The notes below the pieces were generated by a model. The model was not told where the DNA came from. It saw only the letters and a program-made list of their open reading frames with translations, and did not search any database. This document shows, piece by piece, positions 9,432-44,028 of a stretch of 54,543 bases of DNA. This stretch comes from an uncultured Aliivibrio sp. (GTDB taxonomy: Bacteria; Pseudomonadota; Gammaproteobacteria; Enterobacterales; Vibrionaceae). Each line of letters begins with the position of its first letter. Within the stretch, counting starts at the first letter, position 1. The stretch covers positions 1 to 54,543 of the forward strand of contig NZ_CAMLHO010000026.1 of assembly GCF_946479765.1 (NCBI RefSeq). Direction: 5' to 3'. The translations under genes were made by a program, and so were the position numbers.

Positions 9432-9446
9432 GCAATCATTATGCCA
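9432..9446 (-). promoter_or_regulatory. Predicted sigma54 promoter for the tup-mob-moe operon
   Basis: On the minus strand the sequence reads TGGCATAATGATTGC, with GG and GC separated by exactly 10 bases, matching the consensus TGGCAC-N5-TTGC except at one base. The -12 side faces tupA, and transcription would start near 9420. A sigma54 activator is encoded divergently, which fits. Confidence 0.78.
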
Positions 9447-9537
9447 AAATTTATACTGATGATTTTGTATATAACATAATGATATATAAGCAATTGAATG
9501 CTATTTTTATATAAAAACCTTACAAAAAATGTGACTA

Positions 9538-9551
9538 GGACAAAATGTCTC
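9538..9551. promoter_or_regulatory. Candidate activator site, distal to the tup promoter
   Basis: GGACAAAATGTCTC contains the inverted halves GACA and TGTC. It lies about 95 bases upstream of the tup -24 element. The same word in the same kind of position occurs upstream of the formate dehydrogenase operon (43899-43933). Inferred enhancer for the adjacent sigma54 regulator. Confidence 0.6.
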
Positions 9552-9594
9552 ATTAGAAAGGATACATTTTGCAGAATACAGGTTAGAATAATTA

Positions 9595-9608
9595 GGACAT
9601 TTTGACCC
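9595..9608. promoter_or_regulatory. Second candidate activator site in the tup / regulator spacer
   Basis: GGACATTTTGACCC is a second copy of the GGACATTTTG word, 57 bases from the first. A weaker ACATTTTG lies between them (about 9564-9571). This one is only 36 bases from the regulator start codon and could also allow autoregulation. Confidence 0.5.
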
Positions 9609-9644
9609 ACAAATCCCTGTCAGTACTATTAATTAGGAAATATT

Positions 9645-11063
9645 ATGGTAGCAAAATCAGATTGGCACGCATTCTCAGTTCTTGTGGTTGATGATGAAAT
9701 AGGTATGCAAACCATACTAAAAAAAGCATTAAGTAAACAATTCGGTCAAGTTCATACCGCAGGAACGATTGAAGATGCAGAAGTAATTCGCCAATCTCAC
9801 CATCTTGATCTAATTATCTTAGACATTAATTTGCCGGGGCAAACGGGATTAGAATGGCAAGAAAGTATTGCTTGCGATTTTCGTAATTATGATGTGATAT
9901 TCATGACAGGGTATGCAGAGTTAGATACCGCAATTCAAGCACTTCGTTTAGGGGCTGCTGATTTTATATTAAAGCCATTTAATTTAGAAAACATGCTACA
10001 AGCGGTGAGACGGTGTATGGATCGACGTCTTGTTGAACGTACTAATTTTGCGCTGCAAAGAGAAGTTGAAAAGAATAACCCAATAGAGATCATTGGTAAT
10101 GCAGAAAAAACCTTACAATTAAAACAAATGGTGGCTCAACTTGCGCCCTCAAACGCTGCGGTTTTAATTGAAGGTGAATCCGGTACTGGTAAAGAGCTAG
10201 TTGCTCGTGGTTTGCATCAATTAAGTCATCGAAATGGTCCATTTGTGCCTTTAAACTGTGGCGCGATTGCCCCTGATCTTTTAGAGAGTGAATTGTTTGG
10301 TCATACATCAGGTGCTTTTACTGGCGCGAAAAAAGCTCGAGAAGGTCTATTTAGAGTTGCAAATAATGGCACCTTGTTTTTAGATGAAATTGGTGAGATG
10401 CCAATTGGGATGCAATCATCATTACTACGAGCGTTAGAGCAAAAAGCGATTCGTCCTGTAGGTTCTGAAAAAGAGATCCCAGTTGATGTTCGTATTGTAG
10501 CGGCAACCAATCGAAACTTGCTTGAAGAAGTAGAAAAAGGCAATTTTAGAAAAGATCTTTTTTATCGATTGAATGTCCTTACAGTGTCATTGCCAGCCTT
10601 GCGTGAACGTAAAGCGGATTTGGCTTGTTTGACTGAGCATTTTTCACACATGATCGCTAAAGAAATGGGATTAAAACCAATTCACTGGGCACACGAAGAT
10701 ATAGCTGCCATGACTCAATATGATTGGCCGGGGAATATTCGTGAGCTTAAAAATATGATTGAGCGTTGTATTTTACTCGGTAAACCGCCAGTAGATCACT
10801 GGTCTAGCTTACAAGGTGATACGCCACTGCATCAATCATCGAATCAAGAGCAGATGCTAAATCAAGAACCAACTGAATGTACTTGTATGCCGGAGATGGA
10901 TGAATACCCTGACCAGTGGACATTAAAAGAAGTTGAAAAGAAGCACATAATTACGGTTGTAGATTTGCATGACGGGAACAAGTCAGCGGCCGCAAGGCAA
11001 CTAGGTGTTGCTCGTAAAACATTAGAGAGAAAATTTAAAGAGTGGAGTGAAGAGATCGCATGA
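9645..11063 (+). CDS. Sigma54-dependent response regulator, likely controls tup and fdh genes
   Basis: NtrC-class activator of 472 residues. The receiver domain (1-125) has phosphoacceptor Asp60 in LIILDINLPG and the conserved Lys110. The AAA+ domain (about 145-385) has Walker A GESGTGKE (177-184), the sigma54-contacting GAFTGA loop (223-228) and Walker B TLFLDEIGEM. A Fis-type helix-turn-helix lies at about 440-466 (SAAARQLGVARKTLERK). The linker holds a CTC pair (Cys412, Cys414). ATG at 9645 follows AGGA. The stop overlaps the kinase start (ATGA). It is divergent from the tup operon, whose promoter is sigma54-type, so the target is inferred from context. Confidence 0.92.
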   Translation: MVAKSDWHAFSVLVVDDEIGMQTILKKALSKQFGQVHTAGTIEDAEVIRQSHHLDLIILDINLPGQTGLEWQESIACDFRNYDVIFMTGYAELDTAIQALRLGAADFILKPFNLENMLQAVRRCMDRRLVERTNFALQREVEKNNPIEIIGNAEKTLQLKQMVAQLAPSNAAVLIEGESGTGKELVARGLHQLSHRNGPFVPLNCGAIAPDLLESELFGHTSGAFTGAKKAREGLFRVANNGTLFLDEIGEMPIGMQSSLLRALEQKAIRPVGSEKEIPVDVRIVAATNRNLLEEVEKGNFRKDLFYRLNVLTVSLPALRERKADLACLTEHFSHMIAKEMGLKPIHWAHEDIAAMTQYDWPGNIRELKNMIERCILLGKPPVDHWSSLQGDTPLHQSSNQEQMLNQEPTECTCMPEMDEYPDQWTLKEVEKKHIITVVDLHDGNKSAAARQLGVARKTLERKFKEWSEEIA

Positions 11064-13102
11064 TGTTATCTCCTCTTTTATGGAAACGTAGAATCAAAAC
11101 CATGGTGAGATATCGCTTATTGTGGTTAAACTCTGTTCCTTTATTTCTCACATTGCTTGCTTTAGTGATTATTACTGCGTTTTGGTCGGTGCATTATACG
11201 TGGCAAAACGCACTCAATGATGTTGGAAGTAAATTATCAATAGCGAAGAATAGCGTTGATTTTCTGCAACAAGAGCAGGGGGCTGAACTTCGTGCTTTTG
11301 TTGAGTCATATCAATTTCAAACAAGATTAAAAAATAATGATCCAGATCTTCAGTATTGGGCTGAACACCAAGCTGATAACTATAATTCTGATTTTATTGT
11401 TGTTCATCCTATTGATTATATTGAACACCTCCCTGCATCATCGGTTAACGCATTGTCATTAGGGATCTCTCGTACCTTTTTTCAAGTGATGACGAATGAA
11501 GATTTAAAGAATATTAGTTCGGAATTAAGCACTCAAGTCCAAGTTATCAATAAAGAAAACGGCAGTATTGAAAAGCGGGGACTGGTGATTAGAACCCTAA
11601 TCCCTATTTTTAATAAGGAAGGTAACTTAGCTTGGATAGTTGATAGTGGCATTATTCTTAATAACAGTACTTTTTTGGTTGATAGGATCCGAGACCTTAT
11701 TTATCCAGAAGGCGACTTAGCGTCAGATAATTATGGCACAGTCACTCTGTTTTTAGATGATTTACGTATTAGCACTAACGTACCATTACATAATGATTTT
11801 GCGAATAAATCTCTAAATCAAGGTCGAGCAATAGGAACAAGCGTCTCTCCTGAAGTAAAAGAAAGTGTAATTCAAAATAGAGAACGTTGGGTTAACCGAG
11901 CTTATGTGTATAACAATTGGTATATATCAGCTTATCAACCAATAAAAGGTATGGATGATAATGTCATCGGCATGTTATATACCGGATATTTAGAGTGGCC
12001 TTTACTTAAGCAATATCTACAAAATCTAGTAGAGGCAGGAGTAACGATTTTAATTACGTTGTTGTTATCAACTATTTTTGTACACAGAGGGGCAAGAGAT
12101 CTCTTTCTGCCAATTGAAAAAATTCATTATGTTGTTAAATCAGTTCAAATGGGCAAAAATGTCCGAATTGGAAATTTAGGATTAGATAATAACCATGAGC
12201 TTACGAGTTTGGCTCAACAATTTGATAATATGTTGGATCAATTGCAGCAGCGAAATATTGAGATCCAAAGAGCGTCTAAAGAATTAGAATCAAAAGTTGA
12301 GTCTCGAACAGCAAGTCTGCATGAAAAGACGATTGAGCTTGAGCAATACATCAAATTATTAAAACAAGCACAAGATAAGCTTATTATGAGTGAAAAGTTA
12401 GCGTCTCTTGGAGAGTTAACTGCGGGTATTGCTCATGAAATTAATAACCCAACGGCTGTGATTTTAGGTAATGCAGAGCTAATTAAGTATGAACTAGGTG
12501 ATGGTGCTCATGTCATTTCAGAAGAGCTAGACGCGATAATGGAACAGATTGACCGTATTCGGAATATTACTCGTAGTTTACTGCAATATAGTAGACAAGG
12601 AGGTATTCAAGATGAGGTCACGTGGCAATATATCAATCCAATTATTGAAGAGAGTGTCATCTTAGTTCGAACTGGTGCGAATAAGCGGGATATTGAGGTG
12701 GAATTCGATTTTCAACAACCGCCACGAGTAGAAGTTAATAGACATCATTTATTACAGGTGCTCGTTAATCTACAAATGAACGGTATTCATGCAATGAACA
12801 GTAAAGGAAAGTTAATTATTCGTAGTAGAACGTGGTATGAAGGCGAAATTGAACTTGGTGCGATCATTGAAATTGAAGACTTTGGTTTAGGAATGAGCTC
12901 AGATCAGCTAAATAGAATATTTGACCCTTTTTATACGACTAAGCGTGATGGAACAGGGCTTGGACTTTCGGTTTCTCAAAGTTTATTAAGCCAAACGAAT
13001 GGAGAAATAAAAGTTCGTTCTAGGTTGGGAGAGGGCTCGGTATTTACCGTATTCTTACCTATAAAATACGAGTGTTCTCAATATGATAACTTGGTTGGAT
13101 GA
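11060..13102 (+). CDS. Membrane histidine kinase, partner of the sigma54 regulator
   Basis: 680-residue sensor kinase. A transmembrane helix near residues 25-47 is followed by a large periplasmic region (about 50-325) of double-Cache type. A second helix (about 327-345), a HAMP-like segment and a coiled coil (about 400-440) come next. The HisKA motif GIAHEINNP has phosphoacceptor His459. The ATPase domain carries the N box (NLQMNGIHAM), the G1 box (EDFGLGMS), FDPFYTTK and GTGLGLSVSQ. It starts at ATG 11060, overlapping the regulator stop by 4 bases; a second ATG follows directly. The ligand is unknown; formate, tungstate or a respiratory signal would suit the neighbours. Confidence 0.92.
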   Translation: MMLSPLLWKRRIKTMVRYRLLWLNSVPLFLTLLALVIITAFWSVHYTWQNALNDVGSKLSIAKNSVDFLQQEQGAELRAFVESYQFQTRLKNNDPDLQYWAEHQADNYNSDFIVVHPIDYIEHLPASSVNALSLGISRTFFQVMTNEDLKNISSELSTQVQVINKENGSIEKRGLVIRTLIPIFNKEGNLAWIVDSGIILNNSTFLVDRIRDLIYPEGDLASDNYGTVTLFLDDLRISTNVPLHNDFANKSLNQGRAIGTSVSPEVKESVIQNRERWVNRAYVYNNWYISAYQPIKGMDDNVIGMLYTGYLEWPLLKQYLQNLVEAGVTILITLLLSTIFVHRGARDLFLPIEKIHYVVKSVQMGKNVRIGNLGLDNNHELTSLAQQFDNMLDQLQQRNIEIQRASKELESKVESRTASLHEKTIELEQYIKLLKQAQDKLIMSEKLASLGELTAGIAHEINNPTAVILGNAELIKYELGDGAHVISEELDAIMEQIDRIRNITRSLLQYSRQGGIQDEVTWQYINPIIEESVILVRTGANKRDIEVEFDFQQPPRVEVNRHHLLQVLVNLQMNGIHAMNSKGKLIIRSRTWYEGEIELGAIIEIEDFGLGMSSDQLNRIFDPFYTTKRDGTGLGLSVSQSLLSQTNGEIKVRSRLGEGSVFTVFLPIKYECSQYDNLVG

Positions 13103-13609
13103 TTTTATACCCTAAGATAATTAGTTCATGCTAATTATGAAGATGGGTATGATAAATCCAAAAAGGAAAAAAGAATGACTAATAAAATGTTATCCTCTTC
13201 ACAAAATATGGCACAACTTCAAAGTTTGTACTTTTTATAACCATAATGTTTACGAAATTCGTTGATATTATGATTATGATATAGGATAGTTAGCTCGTCC
13301 GGTTATGACCCCGAACAGTACTAAATTAAGCCACATTCTGAGACGTGTGGCTTTCCTTTTTCTTCCCCTTTACTTATTGTTTTACCTATTCTTTTCTAGA
13401 TGTATCCATTCTATTTTGTATTAAAAAATCTAATCAATAATGACGATATTATCAGTCTGATCTGTATGTAATTGAGTTTTATTTTGTTCGGTAAGTTGTT
13501 CTTTCATACTTATATGAACCCAAAATGAATAATGTGCTCACTAATCATTAAGATACGACCCTGTAATCTTACTCCTAAGTTAACGAATGAATCTACTTGG
13601 AGAAAAATT
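13103..13609. other. Long spacer after the kinase gene
   Basis: About 500 bases without an ORF. It holds an AT palindrome at 13117-13138 (ATAATTAG / CTAATTAT), a convincing terminator at 13328-13361 about 225 bases past the kinase stop, and AT-rich sequence before the glycosyltransferase. The stretch ahead of the terminator could be a long 3' end or an unannotated small RNA. Confidence 0.5.
13328..13361 (+). terminator. Rho-independent terminator
   Basis: AAGCCACA and TGTGGCTT pair as an 8-bp stem with a 10-base loop, followed by TCCTTTTT. It lies 225 bases beyond the kinase stop, so it may end the kinase transcript or a separate small transcript. Confidence 0.75.
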
Positions 13610-14341
13610 ATGAGCCCATTAAGCATTGTAATCATCACATTAAATGAAGAAAAACGAATCGGTCGTTTATTGGAAGATTTAACAAAACAAACAAATCAAA
13701 ACTTTGAAGTGGTCATTGTTGATTCAAACAGCGAAGATGCCACATGTGAAGTTGCTCAGGCCTTTGCAGCGAGTATTTCTGATTTAATGATCCACAAAAT
13801 GGATAAACGTGGTGTTAGCCTAGGTCGTAATACTGGCGCATCACTCGCTAAGCATGAACGCTTACTATTTTTAGATGCAGACGTAAGCCTAAAAACAGAT
13901 TTTCTTGAGAGAGCAGCAACACAATTAGCTGAGAAAAAATTAGAAGTCGCTGGTGTGTATATGGGCTCTAAAGGGCTTCCTATTGCTCATCGAGTAGGCT
14001 ACGGTTTATTTAACTTAGGTTTATTTGCTACTCAATTCACTTTTCCAACTGCCGTTGGTGCGTGTATTTTCTCAACAAAGCGTGCGCACAATGAATTGCA
14101 AGGTTTTGATGAAAACATCACTTTATGTGAAGACTGCGATTATGTGAAACGAGCAAGTCAAACCTGGCGTTTTCGATTTTTACCAATGACGTTTGAGTTT
14201 GATCCACGTCGATTAGACCAAGATGGTTTATTTACGATGGGGGCTACGTATTTAAAAGCCAATATTCGCCGCTTTTTCTTTGGTGAGATGCGCAATAACG
14301 AGATGGAATATAAATTCGGTCATTATTCTGAGCAAAAGTAA
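13610..14341 (+). CDS. Family 2 glycosyltransferase
   Basis: Cytoplasmic GT-A fold transferase of 243 residues using a nucleotide-sugar donor; acceptor unknown. The N-terminus SIVIITLNEEKRIGRLLEDL is typical of GT2, followed by VVDSNSEDATCEVA, a DADVSL (DXD-type) metal-binding site, and CEDCDYVKRA in the acceptor region. The ATG at 13610 has GGAG eight bases upstream; the frame extends 26 codons further upstream without a ribosome site. It lies 15 bases ahead of a DedA-LssY membrane protein gene and is probably cotranscribed, suggesting joint work on an envelope lipid or lipid-linked sugar. Confidence 0.88.
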   Translation: MSPLSIVIITLNEEKRIGRLLEDLTKQTNQNFEVVIVDSNSEDATCEVAQAFAASISDLMIHKMDKRGVSLGRNTGASLAKHERLLFLDADVSLKTDFLERAATQLAEKKLEVAGVYMGSKGLPIAHRVGYGLFNLGLFATQFTFPTAVGACIFSTKRAHNELQGFDENITLCEDCDYVKRASQTWRFRFLPMTFEFDPRRLDQDGLFTMGATYLKANIRRFFFGEMRNNEMEYKFGHYSEQK

Positions 14342-14356
14342 CCAGCATAGGTAAGC

Positions 14357-15640
14357 GTGCTTATGTATGATTCTATGGCATTATTTACGGGCGCATTATT
14401 GGATGCGCTCATAGGGCCAAATTTATTTGTGCCGGGTGAGCCGTTCTTAATTGCAGCCGGTTTTCAGCTTCATCAAGGCGTTTGGGCTGGCGTTATTGCA
14501 GTATTGTTCGGTGGTCTTATTGGTGATCAACTCAGTTATTGGATTGGACGTCGCTTTGGCCGAAAGGCTCAGACACGATTAATGAACTGGCAACCAAAAA
14601 CTCGCCGACCCATTGCTCGCTGTCGCTTGTTACTTCAGAGAAAAGGTAATTCGGTCTTATTGTTTGCTCGCTTATTAGGACCAGTGGCTTGGATCGTTCC
14701 CTTTATCGCTGGTGTAAATAATATCGAGTGGCGACGATTTTCATTGTTTGCATCTATTGGATTACTACTTGGTGTGGGTCAATTTGTCTTATGGGGGTAT
14801 TTACTCTCTTATGGGATTGATGCCTTTCCATTGATGAGTGATATGACACTATTTGTCACCGAGCATAAACAATCAATAGTGACCTTGTTACTGATAGTTA
14901 TTTTTTTCGTGATGGCAAAGAAGTTTCAATGGAAAAATATTGGCAAGAAATCAGTAGCAGTAGTTGTGAGTGCTATTATTTATTTGAATTATAGTCATTT
15001 TTTTTGGGTCGCTGATGATGTAATAGAAAAGTCAATTCCTGCACCATTGCATTTTGATGAAACAAAAACATCTTTCAAAGCTTTCCCTGGAGTATCTTCT
15101 TTTTTTGATGCGCAAGCGGTTAATATCGCACTTATTGGCCATCACCCTCAATCTATAATGGTGCAATTAGGTTGGATTGAGAATAAAACGTTTTCTCGTG
15201 ATGATATTGAATTTGTTGATTATCTCTCACTGATTAAGAATAAAACGCCACCGGTTTCTGATCTATTTTGGAACGGGCGGATACAAGATATGGCATTTCA
15301 ATTACCGGGCGATTTATTAAAGAGAAGTCATATTCGGTGGTGGAGTGCAGGTAAGAACGAAAATAATGAACAAGTATGGTTAGGAGTACTAAGTTACGAT
15401 GATGGGTTAACGATTACCGCTTATCGAGGTATTGTGACTATGTTACATAGCATTGATCCTAATGTAGATGAGGAAAGAGAACGATTAAAAACGAGTATTG
15501 ATACTTTTTTTCTCGATTTAACGACCTTAAATATAGCTTATGCAGAACCGATCACTGAAGATGAACAACATGATTACTATTCTGATGGAAAGATACTAGT
15601 TATTGGTTTATCACAGAGTTTACTCATCGCAAATAATTAG
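14357..15640 (+). CDS. DedA family membrane protein with C-terminal LssY-like domain
   Basis: 427 residues in two parts. Residues 1-200 are a DedA/SNARE-associated domain: EPFLIAAGF near the N-terminus, GGLIGDQLSYWIGRRFG, and FARLLGPVAWIVPFIAGV, with several membrane helices. Residues about 230-420 are a soluble domain beginning PAPLHFDETKTSF and containing FWNGRIQDMAFQLPGD, which resembles the LssY C-terminal domain. DedA proteins are linked to lipid carrier flipping; LssY-type domains occur in membrane proteins near secretion or lipid enzymes. The GTG at 14357 has AGGTAAG at close spacing; an ATG at 14363 is the alternative. It converges with a kinase gene across a hairpin. Confidence 0.8.
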   Translation: MLMYDSMALFTGALLDALIGPNLFVPGEPFLIAAGFQLHQGVWAGVIAVLFGGLIGDQLSYWIGRRFGRKAQTRLMNWQPKTRRPIARCRLLLQRKGNSVLLFARLLGPVAWIVPFIAGVNNIEWRRFSLFASIGLLLGVGQFVLWGYLLSYGIDAFPLMSDMTLFVTEHKQSIVTLLLIVIFFVMAKKFQWKNIGKKSVAVVVSAIIYLNYSHFFWVADDVIEKSIPAPLHFDETKTSFKAFPGVSSFFDAQAVNIALIGHHPQSIMVQLGWIENKTFSRDDIEFVDYLSLIKNKTPPVSDLFWNGRIQDMAFQLPGDLLKRSHIRWWSAGKNENNEQVWLGVLSYDDGLTITAYRGIVTMLHSIDPNVDEERERLKTSIDTFFLDLTTLNIAYAEPITEDEQHDYYSDGKILVIGLSQSLLIANN

Positions 15641-15660
15641 GGTCGTTATTGACCCTAATT
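15635..15660. terminator. Hairpin between convergent genes
   Basis: AATTAGGGTC and GACCCTAATT make a perfect 10-bp stem with a 6-base loop, starting over the DedA-LssY stop codon. There is no long T-tract, so it may act weakly in both directions. Confidence 0.55.
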
Positions 15661-15701
15661 TAGATTGTCAGAATACGATGTTTAATAAAGCAGAAAAACG
15701 A

Positions 15702-17066
15702 TCACTCTTTTACTCGTGGGAAGGTTAGGGTGGCTTTTAGTCCTCCCATTGCACTCTTTGATAATTCAAGCGAGCCGCGATAACTGTGCGCCATTTCACT
15801 CACAATATTTAGCCCAAGACCTGTTCCTGGAGTCGTTTCATCCAAACGGATACCACGTTTAATGACTTGTTCAAACTCTGATTCAGGAATACCTTCACCA
15901 TCATCCTCAATCATTATACGAATTTGATTTGCTTCAACTTCCTTAGAATGAACACGGATCATTGAATGTGCCCATTTATATCCATTTTCAAGTAAGTTTC
16001 CTAGCATCTCATCGAGATCAGTTTTATCGACGGCGATATGATCTTCACTGTCTAGCTCATTTATTAATATCACGTCACGTTCAGCATAGACTTTATCAAA
16101 TGCCATTGAGATCGCATCTACTCGTTCAGAGGGTGAGGTGGCCACTGAGAGGATATTCATTGAACCTGCCATGCGAGCACGACTAAGGTGATAATCAATA
16201 TGTGCTTGCAGTTGAGCAATAGGAGCAGATAACCGATTTTTATCTTCAACGCTCAAATATTCTAATTCATTTTTTAGTACCGATAGAGGTGTCTTTAATG
16301 AATGAGATAAATTACCGGCATGATGACGAGCACGTTCAAGTAACTCTTGGTAATGAAATAATAGTGCGTTGAGATCAGAAACCAATGGCGCGATCTCTTG
16401 AGGATAATGCTGACTTAATGCCTGTTGTTCACCTTTACGCAGCATAACTAACTCAGATTGCATTTTAGCTAAAGGGCGAAGTGACCAGCTGACTTGAATA
16501 CCGATAAGAAACAATATGCCACTAAACAATAAGCCCAGAATAACCCAAAGCTGTCCTGTGAGTTGCTGCAATGTTTTTTCTAGAGGATCTTCATCAAGAC
16601 CAATAGTAATCGTCACAGGGGTTTTTATTTCAGGAAGATAAATTTTCTTTTGAATATAAATAAGTTTTTCATTATTAGCCCCTTTAACATTAGGGCTAAT
16701 ATCTAACGTATCTTCTTCGAATGTGAGCTTTTTATCCCATAAAGAACGAGAACGTAACTCTGTACCTTTTGTATTAGCTGTCCAGTATAACCCGCTATAA
16801 GGTTGATTAAAGCGAGGGTCAGATAACCGAGAAGGCATGATGAGATTACCTTCACTGTTTACTTCGATATTGGCGGTGATTTCATCCATAGAAAGAGAGA
16901 GCTGATCTTTCTCATCCTGGACTAAATAGTCACTGACTAGTTTTGGAATACCAATACCCGCCGCTAAGATCATTGCAGATAGCCAAAAAGCCGCAGCAAG
17001 AAGCAAGCGGCTTTTTAAACTCAATTTATTGAACGTACCTTTAAGGTGCTTAGGTGCTCTTTTCAC
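15702..17066 (-). CDS. PhoQ-like sensor histidine kinase
   Basis: 454-residue inner-membrane kinase. Transmembrane helices at about 21-43 and 172-194 flank a periplasmic domain of about 130 residues. HAMP is near 195-245. The dimerisation motif HAGNLSHSLKTPLSVL has phosphoacceptor His255, the form typical of PhoQ-type kinases. The ATPase domain shows LDEMLGNLLENGYKW, DDGEGIPE and GTGLGLNIV. It lies 15 bases after its response regulator gene. An acidic, signal-bearing PepSY protein is encoded upstream in the same direction. Signals such as cations or antimicrobial peptides are known for the family but not demonstrated here. Confidence 0.9.
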   Translation of the reverse strand: MKRAPKHLKGTFNKLSLKSRLLLAAAFWLSAMILAAGIGIPKLVSDYLVQDEKDQLSLSMDEITANIEVNSEGNLIMPSRLSDPRFNQPYSGLYWTANTKGTELRSRSLWDKKLTFEEDTLDISPNVKGANNEKLIYIQKKIYLPEIKTPVTITIGLDEDPLEKTLQQLTGQLWVILGLLFSGILFLIGIQVSWSLRPLAKMQSELVMLRKGEQQALSQHYPQEIAPLVSDLNALLFHYQELLERARHHAGNLSHSLKTPLSVLKNELEYLSVEDKNRLSAPIAQLQAHIDYHLSRARMAGSMNILSVATSPSERVDAISMAFDKVYAERDVILINELDSEDHIAVDKTDLDEMLGNLLENGYKWAHSMIRVHSKEVEANQIRIMIEDDGEGIPESEFEQVIKRGIRLDETTPGTGLGLNIVSEMAHSYRGSLELSKSAMGGLKATLTFPRVKE

Positions 17067-17081
17067 TATAGGCCTTTATTT

Positions 17082-17738: not shown

Positions 17739-17773
17739 TGTAATTTTTGTCTCTAGTAATTATGTAGGGATTA

Positions 17774-34444: not shown

Positions 34445-34453
34445 GAATTAATC

Positions 34454-35359: not shown

Positions 35360-35368
35360 GGGTTAACG

Positions 35369-36007: not shown

Positions 36008-36037
36008 TGTAATAATCGTCGAATGATATTCGTATAT

Positions 36038-36077
36038 ATAAGCCTAACAATAGTCATTATTGCTAGGCTTTTTTATT
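36038..36077 (+). terminator. Rho-independent terminator of the pcp operon
   Basis: AAGCCTAACAAT pairs with ATTGCTAGGCTT (one mismatch), followed by TTTTATTT, about 30-70 bases after pcp. Confidence 0.82.
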
Positions 36078-36350: not shown

Positions 36351-38243
36351 ATGCATCTAACCTTAAAAATTAAACTTGTTTTAACAAGTGTGGCACTTAT
36401 CGTATTAACGATTATATCTCTAGGTACTTTTTCATACCAAACAATGAAAACACAAGCATGGGATGCAATTCACAGTGAGAGTGGGAATACTGCGAAAGCG
36501 TACAGTTTAGGCATTGGAGATTGGTTCAAAGGGCGTCAAGATGCAATAACTGCAATGAAAGAAGCAATTGAACGCGATCCTAATCTCGATATGGTCGCTC
36601 ATTTAAAGCAAACTTTTACTTCAGGTGACTTTGGTTTGAGTTACTACGGTGATGCAGAAGGCGTAATGCAACGTCAAGATCCATCATTGAATAAAGCGGG
36701 CTACGATCCTCGTACACGTGGGTGGTATAAAGAAACTATTGCCGCCAATAAAGGCATAACAACAGAGCCTTATGTAAGTCACACCATGCAAGCGTTAGTG
36801 GTTACGCTAACAGAGCCGGTTCGTGAAAATGGTCGAATCGTGGGTGTTACGGCATCAAACTTAGCATTGAGTGCATTAATTGATGATGTGCTTGATATTT
36901 CGGTTCCGGGCGATGGTTACGCAATGCTTCTTGATGTGAGCAATCGAATTGTGGTTGCGCACCCAAATGAAAAAATGGCGTTAAAGCCAATTTCAGAACT
37001 GGGGCAAGGGTTTGATGCCAATAATCTGAATAGCGAAATTTCATCGGATGGTTTCTTCTTTACTGAACAACAAGGCAAAGAGAAAGCGGTGATGGTGACA
37101 GCAGTTCCTAATACTCATTGGGCGATTGCTCTTGTTATGGATAAAGAGACGCTTGAAGCGCCATTAAATGCGATGTTAGTAAAATTATGCCTTATTGGTG
37201 GTTTAATCTTACTGTTTGTTTCGTTATTTACTGGCTGGTTGGTTACGCGTCAGTTGAGAGAGCTAGGTACTGTATCAGAAGCATTAGCAGGCATCGCCAA
37301 TGGTGAAGGGGATTTAACGGTTCGTATCAATGTGAAATCGGATGATGAAGTTGGCAAACTGGCTGAGAATTTTAATCAATTTGTGTCTCGCTTACATACA
37401 ATGGCATCGAATCTACAAGAGATCACGTTAGAGCTAAATCGCTCGGCAGCAGATTCTGCCAGTTCTGCGATTAAAAGAAGTGAAAATATTCGCCAACAGC
37501 AAGATGAAATTACAATGGTAGCCACTGCGGTGACAGAAATGGCGAGTGCAACACAAGAAATCGCAGGCAATGCAGAAAACACGGCAAAATCAGCCTCGCA
37601 AGCGGTAGAGCTGACGCAAGAAGGCCATCAACAAGTGAACCAAAGCCAATCTTCAATTGGTAACTTAGCGAGTGAAGTTAATAGTGCGGTAGGTATTATT
37701 GAAGCTCTCAACGGTCACGCTCACAAAATTAGTTCAATTTTAGCGACAATCCGCTCTATTGCAGAGCAAACTAACTTACTGGCGTTGAATGCTGCCATTG
37801 AAGCAGCGCGAGCAGGAGATCAAGGTCGTGGCTTTGCTGTGGTTGCTGATGAAGTTCGTGTATTATCGCAACGAACACATACATCAACCGAAGAAATTCA
37901 ATCAATGATTGAAACATTACAAACAACAACGCAAGAAGCCGTTTCAGTGATGTCAGACAGTCATAATCTTGCAGAAACCAGTGTAAAAGACGTTGATGAA
38001 GCGGGAGTAAGTATTGATAATATCGCCTCTCAAATTAATGTTATTAGTGACATGGCAACACAAATAGCATCGGCAGCCGAAGAGCAATCAAGCGTAACCG
38101 CTGAGATCAGTCGTAATACTGAAGGTGTGCAAGAAGTCGCCAACCAAATGGCAAGGGAAGCAGAAATAGCAGCGCAGCAAGCGGAAGCATTAAAATCATT
38201 AGCAGATTCGTTAGAAGAAGAAATTAAGCGTTATAAATTATAA
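36351..38243 (+). CDS. Methyl-accepting chemotaxis protein with Cache sensor
   Basis: 630-residue membrane chemoreceptor. Helix TM1 is at about 8-30. The periplasmic double-Cache domain (about 35-275) contains [14 protein letters not shown], a motif seen in amino-acid-type Cache domains. TM2 (about 278-300) is followed by HAMP and a long signalling coiled coil with the hairpin tip [20 protein letters not shown]. The downstream strand of the Cache pocket reads GVTASNLAL where the amino-acid-type motif has Asp, so the ligand may differ. It is a single gene with its own terminator. Confidence 0.92.
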
Positions 38244-38263
38244 AATCATAAGAAACCCTATAT

Positions 38264-38290
38264 AAACCGTCATTTTTTGGCGGTTTTTTT
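38264..38290 (+). terminator. Terminator of the chemoreceptor gene
   Basis: AAACCGTC and GGCGGTTT pair, with one G-T, around a T-rich loop, followed by Ts. Confidence 0.7.
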
Positions 38291-38471
38291 ATGAGATTAG
38301 TTCAGAATAAAAATTAGAGTCGTACCTTGTAAAATAATTCATAAACATTTTCCATTAACTATTCCCAAAAGTAAAACAAGGTGTAGAATACGCTTCCTTG
38401 TCGGCTAACACACTATGTGTGATGTATTCCAGTGTATTGAAAATAAAGACGAATACACTTTTAGGATAGAA

Positions 38472-39620
38472 ATGAAAAACGCATTATTTGCTCTTGTTAT
38501 TGCTCTAATTACGGTTTCTTGTACCCCAATTTTCGATGGTGATTACAATCAATCAAATTCAAATTCAACATCATGTGATTGTAGTGGAAACTCTTCGTCT
38601 GGTTCAGGATCGTGGAAACCAAATACCTCAGAACAAAATCAATCAATTGAAGAACAGTTAGCGAATTTATCTGACCATGTGCATAAAACATGGGGTGATA
38701 AAGAGTTTCTGGAAGCAGGTAAACATCGTTACGTAAAGTACCTTGATGGCTACCGTACACGCGCACATATTGATTTTGATAAAGGTAAAGTTTACATTTC
38801 AACGGTTTCTCAATATCAACCTAAAGAGACGCTTAAAAAAGCAATTATTGGCACCCTTTTAATGCCATCAGATCCCTCACATGTTGATTTATTCAGTGAT
38901 AAATCAATTCCTTTGCGTGGTCGTCCGTTTTTACTTGGTCAAATTAAAGATCAAGAAAATAAAGATATCGAATGGCCGTGGAGAGCAGGAAAATACGCAG
39001 ACTATTTAATTGAACATAAGCTGCAATCAAAAACGATTAAAAATGGCAAAGCGTATTACGTTGAGATCTCAATGGTGGATGACCACTTAGAGCAGCGTGA
39101 ATTTCAATACGCAGATTTAATCAAAAAAGCATCGAATGAATACGATATATCAATTGATTTAATCTATGCAATTATTCAAACAGAAAGCAGCTTTAACCCT
39201 TATGCCGTTAGTCATGCAGGGGCGTATGGATTAATGCAGGTGATCCCAAAAACAGCAGGAGCAGACGTTTTTAAGTTAGTAAAAAATAAATCAGGAATAC
39301 CGACTAAAGAATACTTATTTAATCCTGCAAACAACATTGATACAGGAACTGCATATTTCTATATTTTAAAAAATCGTTATTTACGAGATATTACTCATGC
39401 AACTAATAAACATTACAGCATGGTCTCAGCCTATAACGGTGGTTCTGGTGGGGTATTTAGCACTTTTGATCCTAGTAAAACCAAAGCGATTAACGAAATA
39501 AATAGCTTGCAGCCAAGTCAATTATATTGGGCGTTAACCAATAAACACCCTAAGGCTGAAGCTCGACGATATTTAGAAAAAGTATTGAAGTTTCAGAAAG
39601 AATTCAATGAAAAAGCGTAA
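38472..39620 (+). CDS. mltC: Membrane-bound lytic murein transglycosylase C
   Basis: 382-residue outer-membrane lipoprotein that cleaves the MurNAc-GlcNAc bond, giving 1,6-anhydro ends. ATG 38472 follows AGGATAGAA and opens the signal MKNALFALVIALITVSC with lipobox Cys17. A Ser/Asn-rich linker (about 25-45) precedes the N-terminal MltC domain. The SLT catalytic domain follows, with IYAIIQTESSFNPYAVSHAG (the Glu in TESSF is catalytic), YGLMQVIP and SAYNGGSGGVF. It is 44 bases upstream of the HD-GYP gene. Confidence 0.9.
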   Translation: MKNALFALVIALITVSCTPIFDGDYNQSNSNSTSCDCSGNSSSGSGSWKPNTSEQNQSIEEQLANLSDHVHKTWGDKEFLEAGKHRYVKYLDGYRTRAHIDFDKGKVYISTVSQYQPKETLKKAIIGTLLMPSDPSHVDLFSDKSIPLRGRPFLLGQIKDQENKDIEWPWRAGKYADYLIEHKLQSKTIKNGKAYYVEISMVDDHLEQREFQYADLIKKASNEYDISIDLIYAIIQTESSFNPYAVSHAGAYGLMQVIPKTAGADVFKLVKNKSGIPTKEYLFNPANNIDTGTAYFYILKNRYLRDITHATNKHYSMVSAYNGGSGGVFSTFDPSKTKAINEINSLQPSQLYWALTNKHPKAEARRYLEKVLKFQKEFNEKA

Positions 39621-39663
39621 TGCGAAGCCTTCGTTACTATCAATAATTAATGGTGTATAGTAA

Positions 39664-41796
39664 GTGAGATTATTTTGGTTTTTACTAGTGTGTTTGTATT
39701 CTTCTTTTTCATGTGCAATTCTGTTAACAGAAGCAGAGCAAGATTGGATAACAAATAATCGTGATTTTACATTTTATAATGATAATTATAATTCAAGGCT
39801 TTTCTTTATAGAAAATGGAGTTCAAAAAGGGCTTTATAGTGATTTAATTAAAGATATCAATAAAAAATTAAACACTAATTTCCATATAAAAGTAGAAGAC
39901 CTAGAAGATCTTATTACTAAGTTTGATAATGTTGAGACTGGCGCTTACTTTGATTTTGCCAAAACTGAAGAGAGAGATCTGAATTATAATTTTATACCTA
40001 CATTATATCGTATAAGTATTAAGGTTTTTTATAAAGACGACGATCTTATTCATGATCTAGTGAGTTTAAATAACAAAAGAGTAGACTTGGTTGAAGAATG
40101 GTATTCTTCAAATGAGTTCATTCTAAAATATGAGGATGATATTAATTATATCCCAGTTAGATTTACTGGTTTAAATGAGATGATGGCAGCATTAAACAAT
40201 GGTGAGATTGACGCTTTCATAGCAGATACACAAGCAATTAGTGAGAAATCATATTTCACGCATGAGCTACCAAGACTCGATAGTTTGTATACTTCTTTTG
40301 CAGTAACAAAAGATCAGCCTGAATTACACGCTATATTAATAAAATATTTCAATGAATTAAGTGCAGTTGAGATAAAAGAATTAGTCAAAAATTCTCGCGA
40401 AGAAAACTTCATTTACTTCTTTAAAAATAATCAGGAAATTAAAGGGTTAAATGTAACCGTTGGTTATGGATTTGAGGAGTTTCCTGCCAGTTATCTTGTT
40501 AACGGAGAATACGAAGGAATAGCACCGGCACTTTTTGACAGTATAGAAACGATTTTTAAAGACACTGTGACATTTACTCAACCGAAATTGGGGGAGTGCC
40601 TAGAATATGATCTATTACTTTCTACTTTTTCTAATGAATGTATTACTGAACATTACTATCTCACCAAGCCATATTATAGTTTTGAATTATCTGTATTTAA
40701 TAAGTTAGAAGGCAGTTTTATCTCTAGAATATCTGATGTGAACTATTCAACATTAGGAATACTTAAAAATGCTCACTATTATGATTATGTTAAAAATAAT
40801 ACCTCTAATGTAACCATGGTCTTCTTTGATACGTTTGAGGAGATTATAGATGCTTTGAATGATGGTAAGATCGATTATGCCTTTGGTGATCAACGCTTAT
40901 TATTTAACCATACGATTAATGATGATATGTATGGTTTAAAAACAGCGGGTACATTAAAAGAACGAATTTCGGTTTATATGGCAGTAAAGAAAGATAAAAA
41001 AGCCTTATATGACCTTATTAATTTGATATCAATCAGCTCTGATAGTGAACATTTGATCAAAAATGTCTATATCAATGAAAATAAAAAATACAAACACAAT
41101 GACACTTGGGTGCTTGCTGTAGGTTTATTGGTCATTGTACTCTTAGCTGCTCGTGTACTTATTGCCAAACGGTCAGAACGAAAGCTATTAACGATGAATG
41201 AATCTTTGATTGGATCGTTAGAAATGGCTTCGCTATACAGTGATGAAGAAACGAGTGAGCACAACAAACGTATTAATGTATATTCTGGGCATTTATCGAA
41301 TTTATTAGGAATGCCAAAGCCGTTTATTAAAGAGATTCAAATGATTGCGTCCTTGCATGATATTGGAAAAATCGGTATTCCTCATTACATCTTGAAAAAG
41401 CCTGGAAAATTAGATTCAGATGAGTTTGATGTGATGAAACAACACGTCAATATTGGTTATGAAATAATTAAAAACACAGAGCTTAGTTTAATAACTAAAA
41501 ATATAGTGCTTTATCACCATGAAAAGTGGAATGGGAAAGGGTACTTAAACTTAGTGGGTGAAGCGATCCCAATTGAAGCAAGAATTGTAAGTATTGTCGA
41601 TGTGTATGATGCCTTAAGACAAAAGCGTGTTTACAAAGAGGGATTTACTCATGAAGTGTCGATTAAGATTATTGAAGAAGAACGTGGTGTATCTTTTGAC
41701 CCCGTGATGGTTGACTTATTCTTAAAACATCATGAAGAATTCAGAACTATTTTTGAAAACAATCAAACACATGCACCAAGAATACCTCTTAAATAG
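39664..41796 (+). CDS. Membrane HD-GYP protein with two periplasmic solute-binding-like domains
   Basis: 710-residue predicted c-di-GMP phosphodiesterase. GTG 39664 opens a signal or anchor segment (FWFLLVCLYSSFSCAILL). Two substrate-binding-3-like domains follow, at about 22-245 and 262-480, both periplasmic. A transmembrane helix lies at about 482-503. The HD-GYP domain (about 515-690) has the HD pair His565-Asp566 in LHDIGKIGIP and the later HHEKWNGKGYL. The last motif has Leu where most have Pro (GYL rather than GYP). Either the activity is retained with a variant motif or it is changed. A double sensor suggests amino acids or similar solutes as signal. Confidence 0.85.
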   Translation: MRLFWFLLVCLYSSFSCAILLTEAEQDWITNNRDFTFYNDNYNSRLFFIENGVQKGLYSDLIKDINKKLNTNFHIKVEDLEDLITKFDNVETGAYFDFAKTEERDLNYNFIPTLYRISIKVFYKDDDLIHDLVSLNNKRVDLVEEWYSSNEFILKYEDDINYIPVRFTGLNEMMAALNNGEIDAFIADTQAISEKSYFTHELPRLDSLYTSFAVTKDQPELHAILIKYFNELSAVEIKELVKNSREENFIYFFKNNQEIKGLNVTVGYGFEEFPASYLVNGEYEGIAPALFDSIETIFKDTVTFTQPKLGECLEYDLLLSTFSNECITEHYYLTKPYYSFELSVFNKLEGSFISRISDVNYSTLGILKNAHYYDYVKNNTSNVTMVFFDTFEEIIDALNDGKIDYAFGDQRLLFNHTINDDMYGLKTAGTLKERISVYMAVKKDKKALYDLINLISISSDSEHLIKNVYINENKKYKHNDTWVLAVGLLVIVLLAARVLIAKRSERKLLTMNESLIGSLEMASLYSDEETSEHNKRINVYSGHLSNLLGMPKPFIKEIQMIASLHDIGKIGIPHYILKKPGKLDSDEFDVMKQHVNIGYEIIKNTELSLITKNIVLYHHEKWNGKGYLNLVGEAIPIEARIVSIVDVYDALRQKRVYKEGFTHEVSIKIIEEERGVSFDPVMVDLFLKHHEEFRTIFENNQTHAPRIPLK

Positions 41797-41819
41797 AGAG
41801 TGAGTAGTTAGATGTTATA

Positions 41820-41862
41820 GACGAGTAAGAGGTTTTTTGTACTTACTCGTCCCTGTTTTTTC
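41820..41862. terminator. Bidirectional terminator between HD-GYP and fdhD genes
   Basis: GACGAGTAAG and CTTACTCGTC form a perfect 10-bp stem around AGGTTTTTTGTA, followed by CCTGTTTTTTCT. Confidence 0.75.
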
Positions 41863-41881
41863 TAGAATCTAGCTCTTAGTA

Positions 41882-42733
41882 CTAATCCCTAAGCGCCGCT
41901 TCACCTTTCACATCAAAATTGATTTTCTCATGGCCAGCAAACACTTGGAAACGCTTACCTTTAGCACGAGCAATAATCGTAATGCCAAATTTCTGCGCTA
42001 AATCTAAGCCCATTTGTGTTACGCCTGAACGAGAAAGTAGTACTGGGATCCCCATCTGAGCAACTTTGATGACCATCTCAGAGGTTAACCGACCTGTCGT
42101 ATAAAACAGCTTATTGTCACCCGTACCACGGTTTAACCATAACTCACCAGCAAGTGTATCTACCGCATTGTGGCGACCTACATCTTCCACAAAAGACGAG
42201 ACTTGGTTGTTTTCACAAATCGCACAGCCATGTACAGCGCCAGCGGCTTTATACGTATCATTGTGATAAGTCAGCGCTTCTAAAGACGCATAGATATCAG
42301 ATTGGTTGATATTAACTTGAGGTACTTGGTAATTTTCAAGTTGCTTCATTACATTGCCATACATGGTGCCTTGACCGCAGCCAGAAGTAACCGTTTTTTT
42401 CTTCAAGTTTTCTTTTACGTGCTCTGTGGTTTCTTTGGTATTTACCGCGGCTGTTTTGGTTTCCCAATCGATCAATACCGACTCTAAAAGCGACACATCA
42501 GAGATGAAATGTTGGTTTTTCAAATAGCCCAATACCAATTCAGCAGGGCGAGCGCCTAACGTCATTAATGTCACGACTTCTTGCCAGTTCAACATTAGGG
42601 TTAATGGCTGCTCGCATGCCACTTCTTTGCTTAGCTTCTCACCGTATTCATCATAAACATCCACAGTAAGAGTTTGTTTAGGTACAGCGCCAGTAGTTAT
42701 TATTTTTGGTGATTGGCTCAAAGTAAGCTCCAA
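41882..42733 (-). CDS. fdhD: Formate dehydrogenase accessory sulfurtransferase FdhD
   Basis: 283-residue cytoplasmic protein that delivers sulfur to the molybdenum cofactor of formate dehydrogenase. Family motifs include ACEQPLTLMLN, LGYLKNQHFI, GAVHGCAICE, EDVGRHNAVD and TTGRLTSEMV. The catalytic loop, usually with a CxxC, reads TSGCGQGTM here with only Cys119. It is divergent from DUF3305, and the spacer holds two opposed sigma54 promoters. It is separated from the HD-GYP gene by a terminator. Confidence 0.93.
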   Translation of the reverse strand: MELTLSQSPKIITTGAVPKQTLTVDVYDEYGEKLSKEVACEQPLTLMLNWQEVVTLMTLGARPAELVLGYLKNQHFISDVSLLESVLIDWETKTAAVNTKETTEHVKENLKKKTVTSGCGQGTMYGNVMKQLENYQVPQVNINQSDIYASLEALTYHNDTYKAAGAVHGCAICENNQVSSFVEDVGRHNAVDTLAGELWLNRGTGDNKLFYTTGRLTSEMVIKVAQMGIPVLLSRSGVTQMGLDLAQKFGITIIARAKGKRFQVFAGHEKINFDVKGEAALRD

Positions 42734-42768
42734 ATTAATGAGATTTAAGGTAATTAGTTTTTTATACG

Positions 42769-42783
42769 CAAAATTTATACCAC
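42769..42783 (-). promoter_or_regulatory. Predicted sigma54 promoter for fdhD
   Basis: On the minus strand the sequence reads TGGTATAAATTTTGC, with GG and GC 10 bases apart. Transcription would begin near 42757, about 24 bases before fdhD. Confidence 0.65.
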
Positions 42784-42798
42784 AGGATGAGTTGTGGT
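42779..42798. promoter_or_regulatory. Inverted repeat between the divergent sigma54 promoters
   Basis: ACCACA and TGTGGT are separated by 8 bases. The repeat overlaps the -24 region of the fdhD promoter and lies just upstream of the opposite promoter. It could bind a repressor or a second regulator; the GGACATTTTG word is not here. Confidence 0.4.
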
Positions 42799-42820
42799 TA
42801 AATTAGAAATACAGTGCTGT

Positions 42821-42835
42821 TGGTACAAGGATTGC
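42821..42835 (+). promoter_or_regulatory. Predicted sigma54 promoter for DUF3305-DUF3306
   Basis: TGGTACAAGGATTGC has GG and GC 10 bases apart and agrees with TGGYAC-N5-TTGC. The start would be near 42847, about 37 bases before the DUF3305 GTG. A partial word GAGACAAAA follows at 42851. Confidence 0.68.
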
Positions 42836-42883
42836 TTTATCTTACGAATAGAGACAAAAACCTCATAGAAAGAAGGGTAACTT

Positions 42884-43345
42884 GTGGAACTAAAGACAGA
42901 AAGCGTTTGGCCACTGCAATTTGAAGTGATTGAAGAAATGAAGCAAGTAGGCCGTTGGAGTGCCCCTTCTTGGCATATTGGTGATGTACAGCTGTATGAA
43001 AAAGTGGCTGCAACAACACAAAGTAACGGGATGTTATTTAAGCGTGAGCTAGAGATTTTTTTAGATGAAAGAACCGACTACCGATTCAATCTAAGCTCGC
43101 AAAGTCCTAAGTTATTCTTTGCGTTTGAAAATGATAACGATGTGCTTACACCAGTGATGATCACCGCGTCCCAAAGCATGATAGGGCAATACATGGATGG
43201 CGATTATGTTGTGCTATCTATCGACATGCCACTACCAATGCAAGCGTGGTTAGAAGCGTTCATTGGAAAGCATGGCGAACTTATCGAAATTCGTAGAAAA
43301 AAACGTAAAGGTGCGGGGCGCGCAAGTGAGCAACTTTCTAAGTAG
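42884..43345 (+). CDS. DUF3305 protein of formate dehydrogenase locus
   Basis: 153-residue soluble protein. GTG 42884 follows AAGGGTAACTT. Family features include VGRWSAPSWHIGDV near residue 23-36 and VMITASQSMIGQYMDG. The C-terminus is basic (RRKKRKGAGRASEQ). DUF3305 proteins are regularly found next to DUF3306 and fdh genes; the role is unknown but presumably in maturation or assembly. The end overlaps DUF3306 by 20 bases. Confidence 0.85.
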   Translation: MELKTESVWPLQFEVIEEMKQVGRWSAPSWHIGDVQLYEKVAATTQSNGMLFKRELEIFLDERTDYRFNLSSQSPKLFFAFENDNDVLTPVMITASQSMIGQYMDGDYVVLSIDMPLPMQAWLEAFIGKHGELIEIRRKKRKGAGRASEQLSK

Positions 43346-43892
43346 ATGGTCATTAAGAAAAAGAAAAGTTCAACAAGGTGAAGAAGTTAGTGATGAGAAA
43401 GTAATAGATCTTACTGAGAGTGTTGATCACTCTGAAGATATTGCTCTCATTAATACTCATACTGAATTGTCTTCTGATACGTCGTCAACTGAGACAGTCG
43501 AAGCTTTGGAAGAGGGTATCGAACTTCCAACCGAAGAAGACCTTGTTAGCATTAATGGTACAAGTAATGTTAGCCAATTTATGGCGACAGGCGTAGATAA
43601 GAATCTGAAAAAAGCCGCATTGAGAAAGATGTTTTTAAATCCAGAATTTGCGATGGAAGATGAGCCTAACTACTCAACTCCACCAAAGTTAGATCCTGAA
43701 ATCGCAGCTAAATTAAGAGATTGGATGGTTGAGCCAATAGAAGAGGAAGAAGACGCGGAAGCATCAGAATTATTAGTAGAACAAGCCGTAGAAAACGTAG
43801 AAGAAATAATCCCAATTAATGGGAATGATAATGAATATCAATGCGTTAACAAAGATGAAGCACAAGAAAGTGAGACAAAAAAGACCATCTAA
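43326..43892 (+). CDS. DUF3306 protein of formate dehydrogenase locus
   Basis: 188-residue acidic protein. GTG 43326, inside the DUF3305 end, gives the family start MSNFLSRWSLRKRK; an ATG further upstream in the same frame would create a 21-residue extension. The basic N-terminus is followed by a long Glu-rich low-complexity part. The conserved ATGVDKNLKKAALRKMFLNP and LDPEIAAKLRDWMVEP lie near the centre and end. A further acidic tail follows. Function unknown; translation is probably coupled to DUF3305. Confidence 0.82.
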   Translation: MSNFLSRWSLRKRKVQQGEEVSDEKVIDLTESVDHSEDIALINTHTELSSDTSSTETVEALEEGIELPTEEDLVSINGTSNVSQFMATGVDKNLKKAALRKMFLNPEFAMEDEPNYSTPPKLDPEIAAKLRDWMVEPIEEEEDAEASELLVEQAVENVEEIIPINGNDNEYQCVNKDEAQESETKKTI

Positions 43893-43898
43893 GCAATA

Positions 43899-43933
43899 GG
43901 GACATTTTGAACCAGTTTGAGACAAAATGTCCC
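43899..43933. promoter_or_regulatory. Candidate activator site upstream of the fdh operon
   Basis: GGGACATTTTG and CAAAATGTCCC form a perfect 11-bp inverted repeat with a 13-base centre. It lies about 100 bases upstream of the sigma54 promoter at 44012. The same word occurs twice in the tup/regulator spacer (9538, 9595). No T-tract follows, so it is not a terminator. Confidence 0.65.
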
Positions 43934-44011
43934 GTCATTAAATAAAAGATAAAAAATAGTGTAAAAATACAGCGTTCTTCCTATTAATATAAATATTTAT
44001 TACCCATTAAG

Positions 44012-44028
44012 TTGGTACGGTTATTGCG
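44012..44028 (+). promoter_or_regulatory. Predicted sigma54 promoter for the fdh structural operon
   Basis: TTGGTACGGTTATTGCG has GG at 44014 and GC at 44026, 10 bases apart. Transcription would begin about 44039, 55 bases before the polyferredoxin ATG. Confidence 0.78.

Follow-up and report, generated by a model that had tools for sequence, protein, structure and literature searches.

A putative formate-responsive two-component system and sigma54 operator shared by formate dehydrogenase and metal/cofactor supply genes in Aliivibrio

How might a cell make formate dehydrogenase together with the metal and cofactor supply that the enzyme needs when the genes for the two tasks lie far apart? The question is raised by contig NZ_CAMLHO010000026.1 of an uncultured Aliivibrio sp. 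(assembly GCF_946479765.1), all 54,543 nucleotides of which are called the window here. At its left locus mobB-moeA, mobA, the genes of an ATP-binding cassette (ABC) transporter and tupA lie on the minus strand, and the genes of a response regulator and a histidine kinase diverge from them on the plus strand. The right locus has fdhD on the minus strand and genes for a DUF3305 protein, a DUF3306 protein, a 4Fe-4S protein, a TorD-like chaperone, a small twin-arginine-type protein and fdhABC, and the tup and fdh loci are 34 kb apart. Judged by the regulator, named records close to this genome are from Aliivibrio: A. sifiae (96%) and A. finisterrensis (94%). A preliminary description of this DNA had proposed that metal import, the cofactor genes and fdh form one sigma54 regulon, and the comparative evidence supports this, for each of the two loci has an operator dyad in all 14 genomes of the genus. 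We consider it probable that the kinase and the regulator (9645-13102) form a two-component system whose special task is formate dehydrogenase and whose signal would be periplasmic formate.

The element on which this proposal turns is a 17-bp dyad, TGRGACA-N3-TGTCYCA, upstream of the tupA and fdh promoters. A pattern search placed one copy at 9536-9552 (TAGGACAAAATGTCTCA, matrix score 22.4) and a second at 9593-9609 (TAGGACATTTTGACCCA, 17.9), directly upstream of the regulator start; at fdh there is a strong copy at 43918-43934 (TGAGACAAAATGTCCCG, 23.5) beside a weaker one at 43898-43914 (AGGGACATTTTGAACCA, 13.7). When the window was scanned with a matrix built from 52 sites of other organisms' loci, the copies at 43918, 9536 and 9593 ranked first to third. 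Between the two tup operators, at 9558-9574, is a degenerate third dyad-like element containing ATACATTTTG, which, like the copy at 9593-9609, recurs in the 13 loci of the genus that were compared in register. The preliminary description had reported a shared 11-base word in inverted pairs at both loci. A related element is indeed at both, but the exact word GGGACATTTTG is confined to fdh (43899-43909, inverted at 43923-43933), where its exact inverted pair occurs once; the tup copies are one base off (9541-9551, 9594-9604), another at 9561 is two bases off, and what recurs, about twice per locus, is not an inverted pair of the word but the dyad with its 3-base spacer. The 11-base word was rejected as the element because it shows no excess, 17 copies with up to two mismatches being found against 17.8 expected.

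Recast as a dyad of 15-17 bp, the element is rare and specific. In 3.80 Mb of genome TGRGACANNNTGTCYCA with up to one mismatch occurs in two places, both at tup/fdh (reversed control, one place), and GGGACAWWWTGTCCC with up to two mismatches in nine places, four of which are these tup/fdh sites. Of the five places outside the window, the two that were scored with the matrix (C18 and C20; the others are C27, C65 and C67) fall below 16. A wide regulon was considered and rejected, because at up to three mismatches GGGACAWWWTGTCCC has 118 places against 152 for its reversed control, which is background. Thus widespread occurrence of the repeat at unrelated genes, which the preliminary description had named as damaging to its proposal, did not appear in the genome scan. 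Further matrix hits in the window are at 14775 (17.7, within a coding region), 52105 (16.0) and 6440 (12.1, within mobB-moeA), and since no promoter accompanies them they were not counted in the regulon. About 0.3 hits of at least 13.6 are expected per window, and since no score of at least 15.9 arose in 20 first-order shuffles, the hits at 14775 and 52105 are not simply chance. The one at 52105-52121 (TAAGACATTTTGTCGTA) lies ahead of a DUF6119 gene and has no sigma54 box.

A search for GG-N10-GC boxes found the sigma54 promoters that had been described at both operons, that of tup at 9446-9431 on the minus strand (TGGCATAATGATTGCT), facing tupA, and that of fdh at 44013-44028 on the plus strand (TGGTACGGTTATTGCG). 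It also found one that had gone unreported, an intergenic plus-strand box at 42821-42836 (TGGTACAAGGATTGCT) ahead of the DUF3305 gene. Six boxes with up to two mismatches occur in the 54.5 kb whereas shuffles lead one to expect about 2.5. Since such boxes are not rare, the boxes alone prove little, and it is their position and conservation that carry weight. The centre of the tup operator is 110 bp from the -12 element (9544 to 9434) and that of the fdh operator 99 bp (43926 to 44025), so that both promoters have the layout of an NtrC-type system, with the operator dyad about 80-220 bp upstream of the -24/-12 promoter.

The same arrangement extends well beyond Aliivibrio. A profile search gave the best 80 loci, from Aliivibrio, Photobacterium, Vibrio, Enterovibrio, Grimontia, Moritella, Aeromonas and Shewanella; L103, on a short contig without tupA, was dropped, hence the 79 loci in which the tup side was compared. 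In all 79 tupA faces the regulator gene, with tupB, tupC, mobA and moeA behind tupA, and the kinase gene lies behind that of the regulator except at contig ends. The dyad with up to one mismatch is present in 73/79 tupA/regulator gaps, and in the fdh upstream regions of 22/27 loci within 330 bp and 24/27 within 420 bp. With 100 permuted half-sites the mean was 0.77 tup gaps and 0.33 fdh loci; the largest counts were 41/79 and 15/27, and the two permuted half-sites that scored high at tup (41/79 and 29/79 loci) perhaps closely resemble the real one. Spacers of 0-2 and 4-8 bases gave 0 or 1 hits in each set of regions. In the 1.56 Mb outside these regions the dyad has 27 sites, a number of which lie within moeA or at a greater distance upstream of fdh. 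Operator-like dyads within mobB-moeA were seen in Photobacterium/Vibrio loci (L100 at 6100, L102 at 6229, L105 at 6210, L108 at 2631, L121 at 5095, L134 at 5940 and L161 at 6242). A sigma54 box points toward tupA in 78/79 loci and toward the regulator in none of the 79, toward the fdh operon in 22/27 and toward DUF3305 in 22/32. The distance from the fdh operator centre to the -12 element is 89-93 bp in 20 of 21 promoters, the window's 99 bp being about one helical turn above this. In 32/80 loci, within the 10 kb examined, fdhD and the DUF3305 gene follow the kinase gene, in some nearly directly; the tup-fdh linkage is therefore, on gene order, old, and the separation in the window is less surprising.

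Whether the operator goes with the regulator was examined in 61 genomes, that of the window together with relatives. Searches identified the regulator in 24 of them and the first protein of the fdh operon in 26, including all 24. Of the remaining two, G023 lacks the regulator, and G025 was counted as regulator-positive, making 25, because the gene is present as frame-broken pieces; in its locus (L224) the regulator (1857-3208) and fdhA (11107-13956) are both split across frames, perhaps by assembly errors. A strict pattern, RGACAAAATGTCBC, occurs in 23/25 genomes with the regulator, at 42 places (reversed control, 8), and in 6/36 genomes without it, at 7 places (control, 9), which gives a Fisher p of 2.8e-9 when relatedness is ignored. 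All 14 genomes of the genus have one strict site at tup/regulator and one at fdh, with a single extra copy in one genome. In G023 tup adjoins fdh; the 17 kb examined there holds neither regulator nor kinase, and no matrix hit of at least 12. As far as sequence comparison goes, then, the operator exists, is specific, stands in trans at each of the two promoters and accompanies this regulator.

V. diabolicus, which supplied one of the loci (L115), is presumably a near relative of V. parahaemolyticus. In the part of PMC9817140 considered here, an rpoN mutant of V. parahaemolyticus has VP1510-VP1515 down by log2 3.17 to 4.75, VP1508 by 1.84 and VP1501 by 1.45, and its table flags VP1501, VP1508 and VP1510 as peaks of RpoN in chromatin immunoprecipitation sequencing of V. 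cholerae. The RpoN sites printed for VP1501 and VP1508, genes called hypothetical there, match exactly the boxes before tupA and DUF3305 in the V. diabolicus locus, and the site printed for VP1510 is one base off its fdh box. These matches suggest that VP1501 is tupA, that VP1508 is the DUF3305 gene and that the VP1510 promoter is that of fdh. Thus sigma54 control of fdh is already published for Vibrio (PMC9817140), and RpoN dependence has been shown in relatives by others once the promoters are matched by their boxes. The DUF3305 promoter is operator-free in the window, yet its presumed counterpart VP1508 is RpoN dependent. The parts of that paper covered here do not name the activator, the operator or the signal of these promoters. 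Among the matches listed from the open-licence PubMed Central literature, which leaves most subscription papers outside, none connects fdh or tup in these bacteria with this regulator or with any other two-component system. In the parts of two other papers considered, BaeSR of Salmonella responds to tungstate (PMC3160322), and a 2007 comparative study is concerned with the sites of Fnr, ArcA and NarP that lie at fdn, fdo and fdhD and does not treat this cluster (PMC1805755).

The candidate activator is the product of 9645-11063 (plus strand), which has the domains of an NtrC-type response regulator in Pfam: a receiver (Response_reg, 86.2 bits), a sigma54 AAA+ domain (Sigma54_activat, 228.7) and a Fis-type helix-turn-helix (HTH_8, 42.1). 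In 11 aligned sequences D60 and K110 are invariant, as are the last four residues (FTGA) of the GAFTGA loop and the greater part of the helix-turn-helix core; the window's regulator has GAFTGA, and the second residue is Ser in one of the 11. That it is the only sigma54 activator of the window, as had been stated, is borne out, for no other protein on the contig matches Sigma54_activat; the genome as a whole holds 13 such matches, of which 10 are strong. It falls under the cut-offs of the named equivalogs AtoC (383 of 714 bits), NtrC (381.9 of 558.6) and LuxO (329.9 of 800), and also under that of the formate hydrogenlyase activator model (245.8 against 830). By elimination the regulator is probably VF_1401 in Aliivibrio fischeri. 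From the gene order, VC1522 and VC1523 of V. cholerae are presumably the regulator and tupA. VC1522 is listed among the V. cholerae response regulators in the part of PMC4441509 considered, and AphA binds at VC1522/VC1523 according to that of PMC6855506.

The gene that follows (11060-13102, plus strand) codes for a membrane histidine kinase with a periplasmic sCache_3_3 domain (Pfam); H459 of the kinase is invariant in 25 aligned sequences. The profile finds this domain, a member of the Cache_3 family, in 25/25 aligned kinases. The stretch at 11663-12001 codes for the domain and for three residues, in a run like RxSTNV...RAxGT, that have the pattern of formate receptors: R236 and T239 are present in 25/25 kinases, and T260 is Thr in 22 and Ser in 3, PacF itself not being in the alignment. 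The binding of formate by PacF is affected by changes at R142, T145 and T158 (PMC12501870), and the sCache_3_3 domain of a gut-bacterium chemoreceptor has been assigned formate (PMC12415202), both from the parts of these papers considered. Three of four Cache_3-Cache_2 receptors that we examined have R140, T143 and T156, the spacings of PacF, and in the fourth R146 and T149 are followed by a Thr that stands one residue nearer. Since the sCache_3_3 domain and the Arg/Thr/Thr pattern of formate receptors are kept in 25/25 kinases, formate is the candidate, and the periplasmic ligand that had been guessed at may now be narrowed to it. These features suggest formate as the kinase signal, and this is the least certain step of the proposal.

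The chain that we propose would run as follows. Periplasmic formate would bind the sCache_3_3 domain of the kinase through R236, T239 and T260, and the kinase would phosphorylate D60 of the regulator. The regulator would bind TGRGACA-N3-TGTCYCA at 9536-9552, 9593-9609 and 43898-43934. Working with sigma54 as an activator, it would open the promoter at 9446-9431 for the tup transporter, mobA and mobB-moeA and that at 44013-44028 for the Fe-S protein, the chaperone and fdhABC. The enzyme and its supply of metal and cofactor would thereby be made together. We infer the phosphotransfer, the binding of the dyad and the activation.

The same regulon could instead answer to metal sufficiency, with the kinase sensing tungstate or molybdate, directly or via TupA, and not formate. 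The regulator/kinase pair is divergent from tupA in 79/79 loci while the fdh cluster is sometimes far away, and sensors often sense the ligand that a neighbouring transporter carries. Set against this, sCache domains of known ligand bind mainly organic acids (PMC8698456, in the part considered), the formate pattern has two invariant residues and, in third place, Thr or Ser, and one relative, G023, has tup and fdh without the pair. We regard metal sensing as unlikely.

Several observations weigh against the proposed formate-responsive system. In the part of PMC9817140 considered, an electrophoretic mobility shift assay with RpoN of V. parahaemolyticus alone gave no shift of the VP1510 promoter and the authors read the control as indirect, and in the open-licence PubMed Central literature we found no binding, transcript or ligand measurement on the regulator. 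A matrix scan of the window found no operator near the DUF3305 box at 42821-42836, and among the 27 fdh regions five have no box and three no dyad. The loci are related, 14 of the 25 genomes with the regulator belonging to one genus, so the counts are not independent; G026 and G041 have the regulator and lack the strict pattern. A relaxed pattern, searched in 16 chosen genomes in which places away from tup and fdh were sampled in part, gave 41 places against 19 for its reversed control; it finds nothing in G041, its sole place in G061 is away from tup/fdh, and in G002 and G037 it catches just one of the two loci. As to the signal, the T239-T260 loop of the kinase is longer than in the receptors, so that the third residue rests on pattern alignment, and a search of solved structures gave weak hits (E 0.0021 and 0.0045) that do not confirm the ligand. 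The last such observation is that no sigma54 box with up to two mismatches lies within 350 bp of Shewanella hyaA in any of 30 loci.

This gene, for the small subunit of [NiFe] hydrogenase, has the same dyad 178-198 bp upstream in Shewanella. It gave 33 matches in 31/40 genomes, and of the 30 loci examined (L192 at 4560, L193 at 4828, L225-L254) the matrix score is at least 16 in 21 and at least 12 in 26. A pure sigma54 model leaves hyaA unexplained because the dyad is there without a sigma54 box, and the regulator is present in 38/40 genomes. It may be that a periplasmic formate-sensing kinase and a sigma54 regulator switch on fdh, metal import and cofactor assembly and that in Shewanella the regulator has also acquired the uptake hydrogenase genes hyaAB, whose promoter has no sigma54 box; we put this combined account forward tentatively, as a real possibility that falls somewhat short of the likely. 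If it is true, this NtrC-type regulator would act at Shewanella hyaAB in another way. The hyaA sites could also be taken to mean that the dyad belongs to another transcription factor, such as a repressor encoded elsewhere, and that the regulator uses sites not recognised here, and the pairing of regulator and dyad does come from sequence comparison. Against this, the dyad tracks the regulator among the genomes (23/25 with it, 6/36 without) and is absent from G023, its 3-base spacer and its 89-93 bp from the -12 element in 20/21 promoters are the layout of an enhancer site, and the regulator helix-turn-helix is nearly invariant, as is the site. It is thus very improbable that the dyad serves another factor.

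The system would work at a distance, and the distance varies. Twelve of the 14 genus genomes have both loci on one contig, separated by about 25-49 kb; in G029 they are 111 kb apart with an operator at each, and in Shewanella sp. ANA-3 (G063) about 195 kb apart, the regulator being at 4.899 Mb and fdhA at 4.704 Mb. In G063, two more Shewanella genomes (G064, G065) and G041 the operator of the fdh cluster (matrix 15.7 to 20.2) and a sigma54 box lie before DUF3305, the listed operator start being 66-68 bp from the box start. Because operator and box sit there in these four genomes, the operator has, to judge from its position, followed its target to another promoter. That the regulator controls the tup side and itself alone, with another sigma54 activator driving fdh and the dyads there left as relics of adjacency, is hardly credible, for although the clusters are adjacent in many relatives and the sites could be inherited, the operator is kept at both loci in 14/14 genus genomes after separation, in G029 at 111 kb and, before DUF3305, at the separated fdh clusters of Shewanella.

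On the minus strand of the left locus are a mobB-moeA fusion for assembly of the molybdenum/tungsten cofactor (4778-6559; NCBIfam PRK14491.1, 996.9 bits, cut-off 532), mobA for the cofactor guanylyltransferase (6556-7158; TIGR02665, 218.7 bits, cut-off 151.85), a tupC-like ABC transporter ATPase gene (7118-7825; ABC_tran), a tupB-like permease gene (7838-8536; ABC_perm1, 195.4 bits, over its cut-off of 100) and tupA for the oxyanion-binding protein (8540-9361). The three transporter proteins score under the NCBI cut-offs for the TupABC equivalogs (TupA 254.6 of 400 bits, TupB 165 of 320, TupC 99.5 of 400), so that tungsten rather than molybdenum is a putative substrate of the transporter.

At the right locus the sulfurtransferase accessory gene fdhD (41882-42733, minus strand) scores 262.7 bits with Pfam FdhD-NarQ and 131.6 with NCBIfam fdhD_narQ, slightly under the cut-off of 140.9. 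The other genes of the cluster are on the plus strand. Pfam identifies those for the DUF3305 protein (42884-43345) and the DUF3306 protein (open reading frame 43263-43892, the real start probably being later), and that for the 4Fe-4S protein (44071-45759), the first gene of the operon, whose presumed V. parahaemolyticus counterpart is the RpoN-dependent VP1510; in three relatives (L041, L042 and L043) the match to this protein shows one in-frame TGA, which may reflect start choice or a stop. Next are the gene for a TorD/DmsD-like chaperone (45764-46375; Pfam Nitrate_red_del, under the NCBIfam cut-offs) and that for a small protein in which we read a twin-arginine-like leader (46454-46654). The catalytic subunit gene fdhA (46667-49522) has Molybdopterin domains and 478.4 bits with TIGR01591, under the cut-off of 666; fdhB, for the iron-sulfur subunit (49536-50144), has 332.6 bits with FDH3_beta (cut-off 240), and fdhC, for the cytochrome b subunit (50080-51180), 261.4 bits with formate-DH-gamma (cut-off 115.85) over residues 151-354, its reading frame probably starting too early.

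What is put forward as new is the assignment of the activator, the operator and the candidate ligand, all of them parts of known kinds. An operator, targets and a candidate ligand would thus be supplied for a sigma54 activator that has had no named role (probably VF_1401, and presumably VC1522) and that spans Shewanella, Aeromonas and Vibrio, and the RpoN-dependent fdh promoters reported in Vibrio would gain a proposed activator. If true, the circuit is a feed-forward from substrate to metal that ties synthesis of the enzyme to import of its active-site trace metal, and the arrival of formate may prompt the cell both to make the enzyme and to take up the metal for it.

The proposed system resembles NtrB/NtrC, AtoS/AtoC and ZraS/ZraR in that a kinase is paired with a receiver-AAA+-Fis regulator that would work with sigma54 from upstream dyads; it differs from them in sensor domain and targets, and the best 25 of 111 models all score under cut-off. 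FhlA of Escherichia coli, also a sigma54 activator, switches on a formate dehydrogenase system in response to formate, which it senses inside the cell, and it has neither a kinase nor a receiver domain. The system proposed here would be like FhlA in formate-linked activation through sigma54 and unlike it in the site of sensing and in domains. With the RpoN regulons of V. cholerae and V. parahaemolyticus, as given in the part of PMC9817140 considered, it shares the same three RpoN-dependent promoters by box matching. Finally, the formate chemoreceptors PacF, McpF and Atu0526 have, in the parts of PMC12501870 and PMC8698456 considered, a Cache_3-type domain with a conserved Arg (in PacF also Thr), as does this kinase; those proteins are chemotaxis receptors, whereas here the Cache domain is on a histidine kinase.

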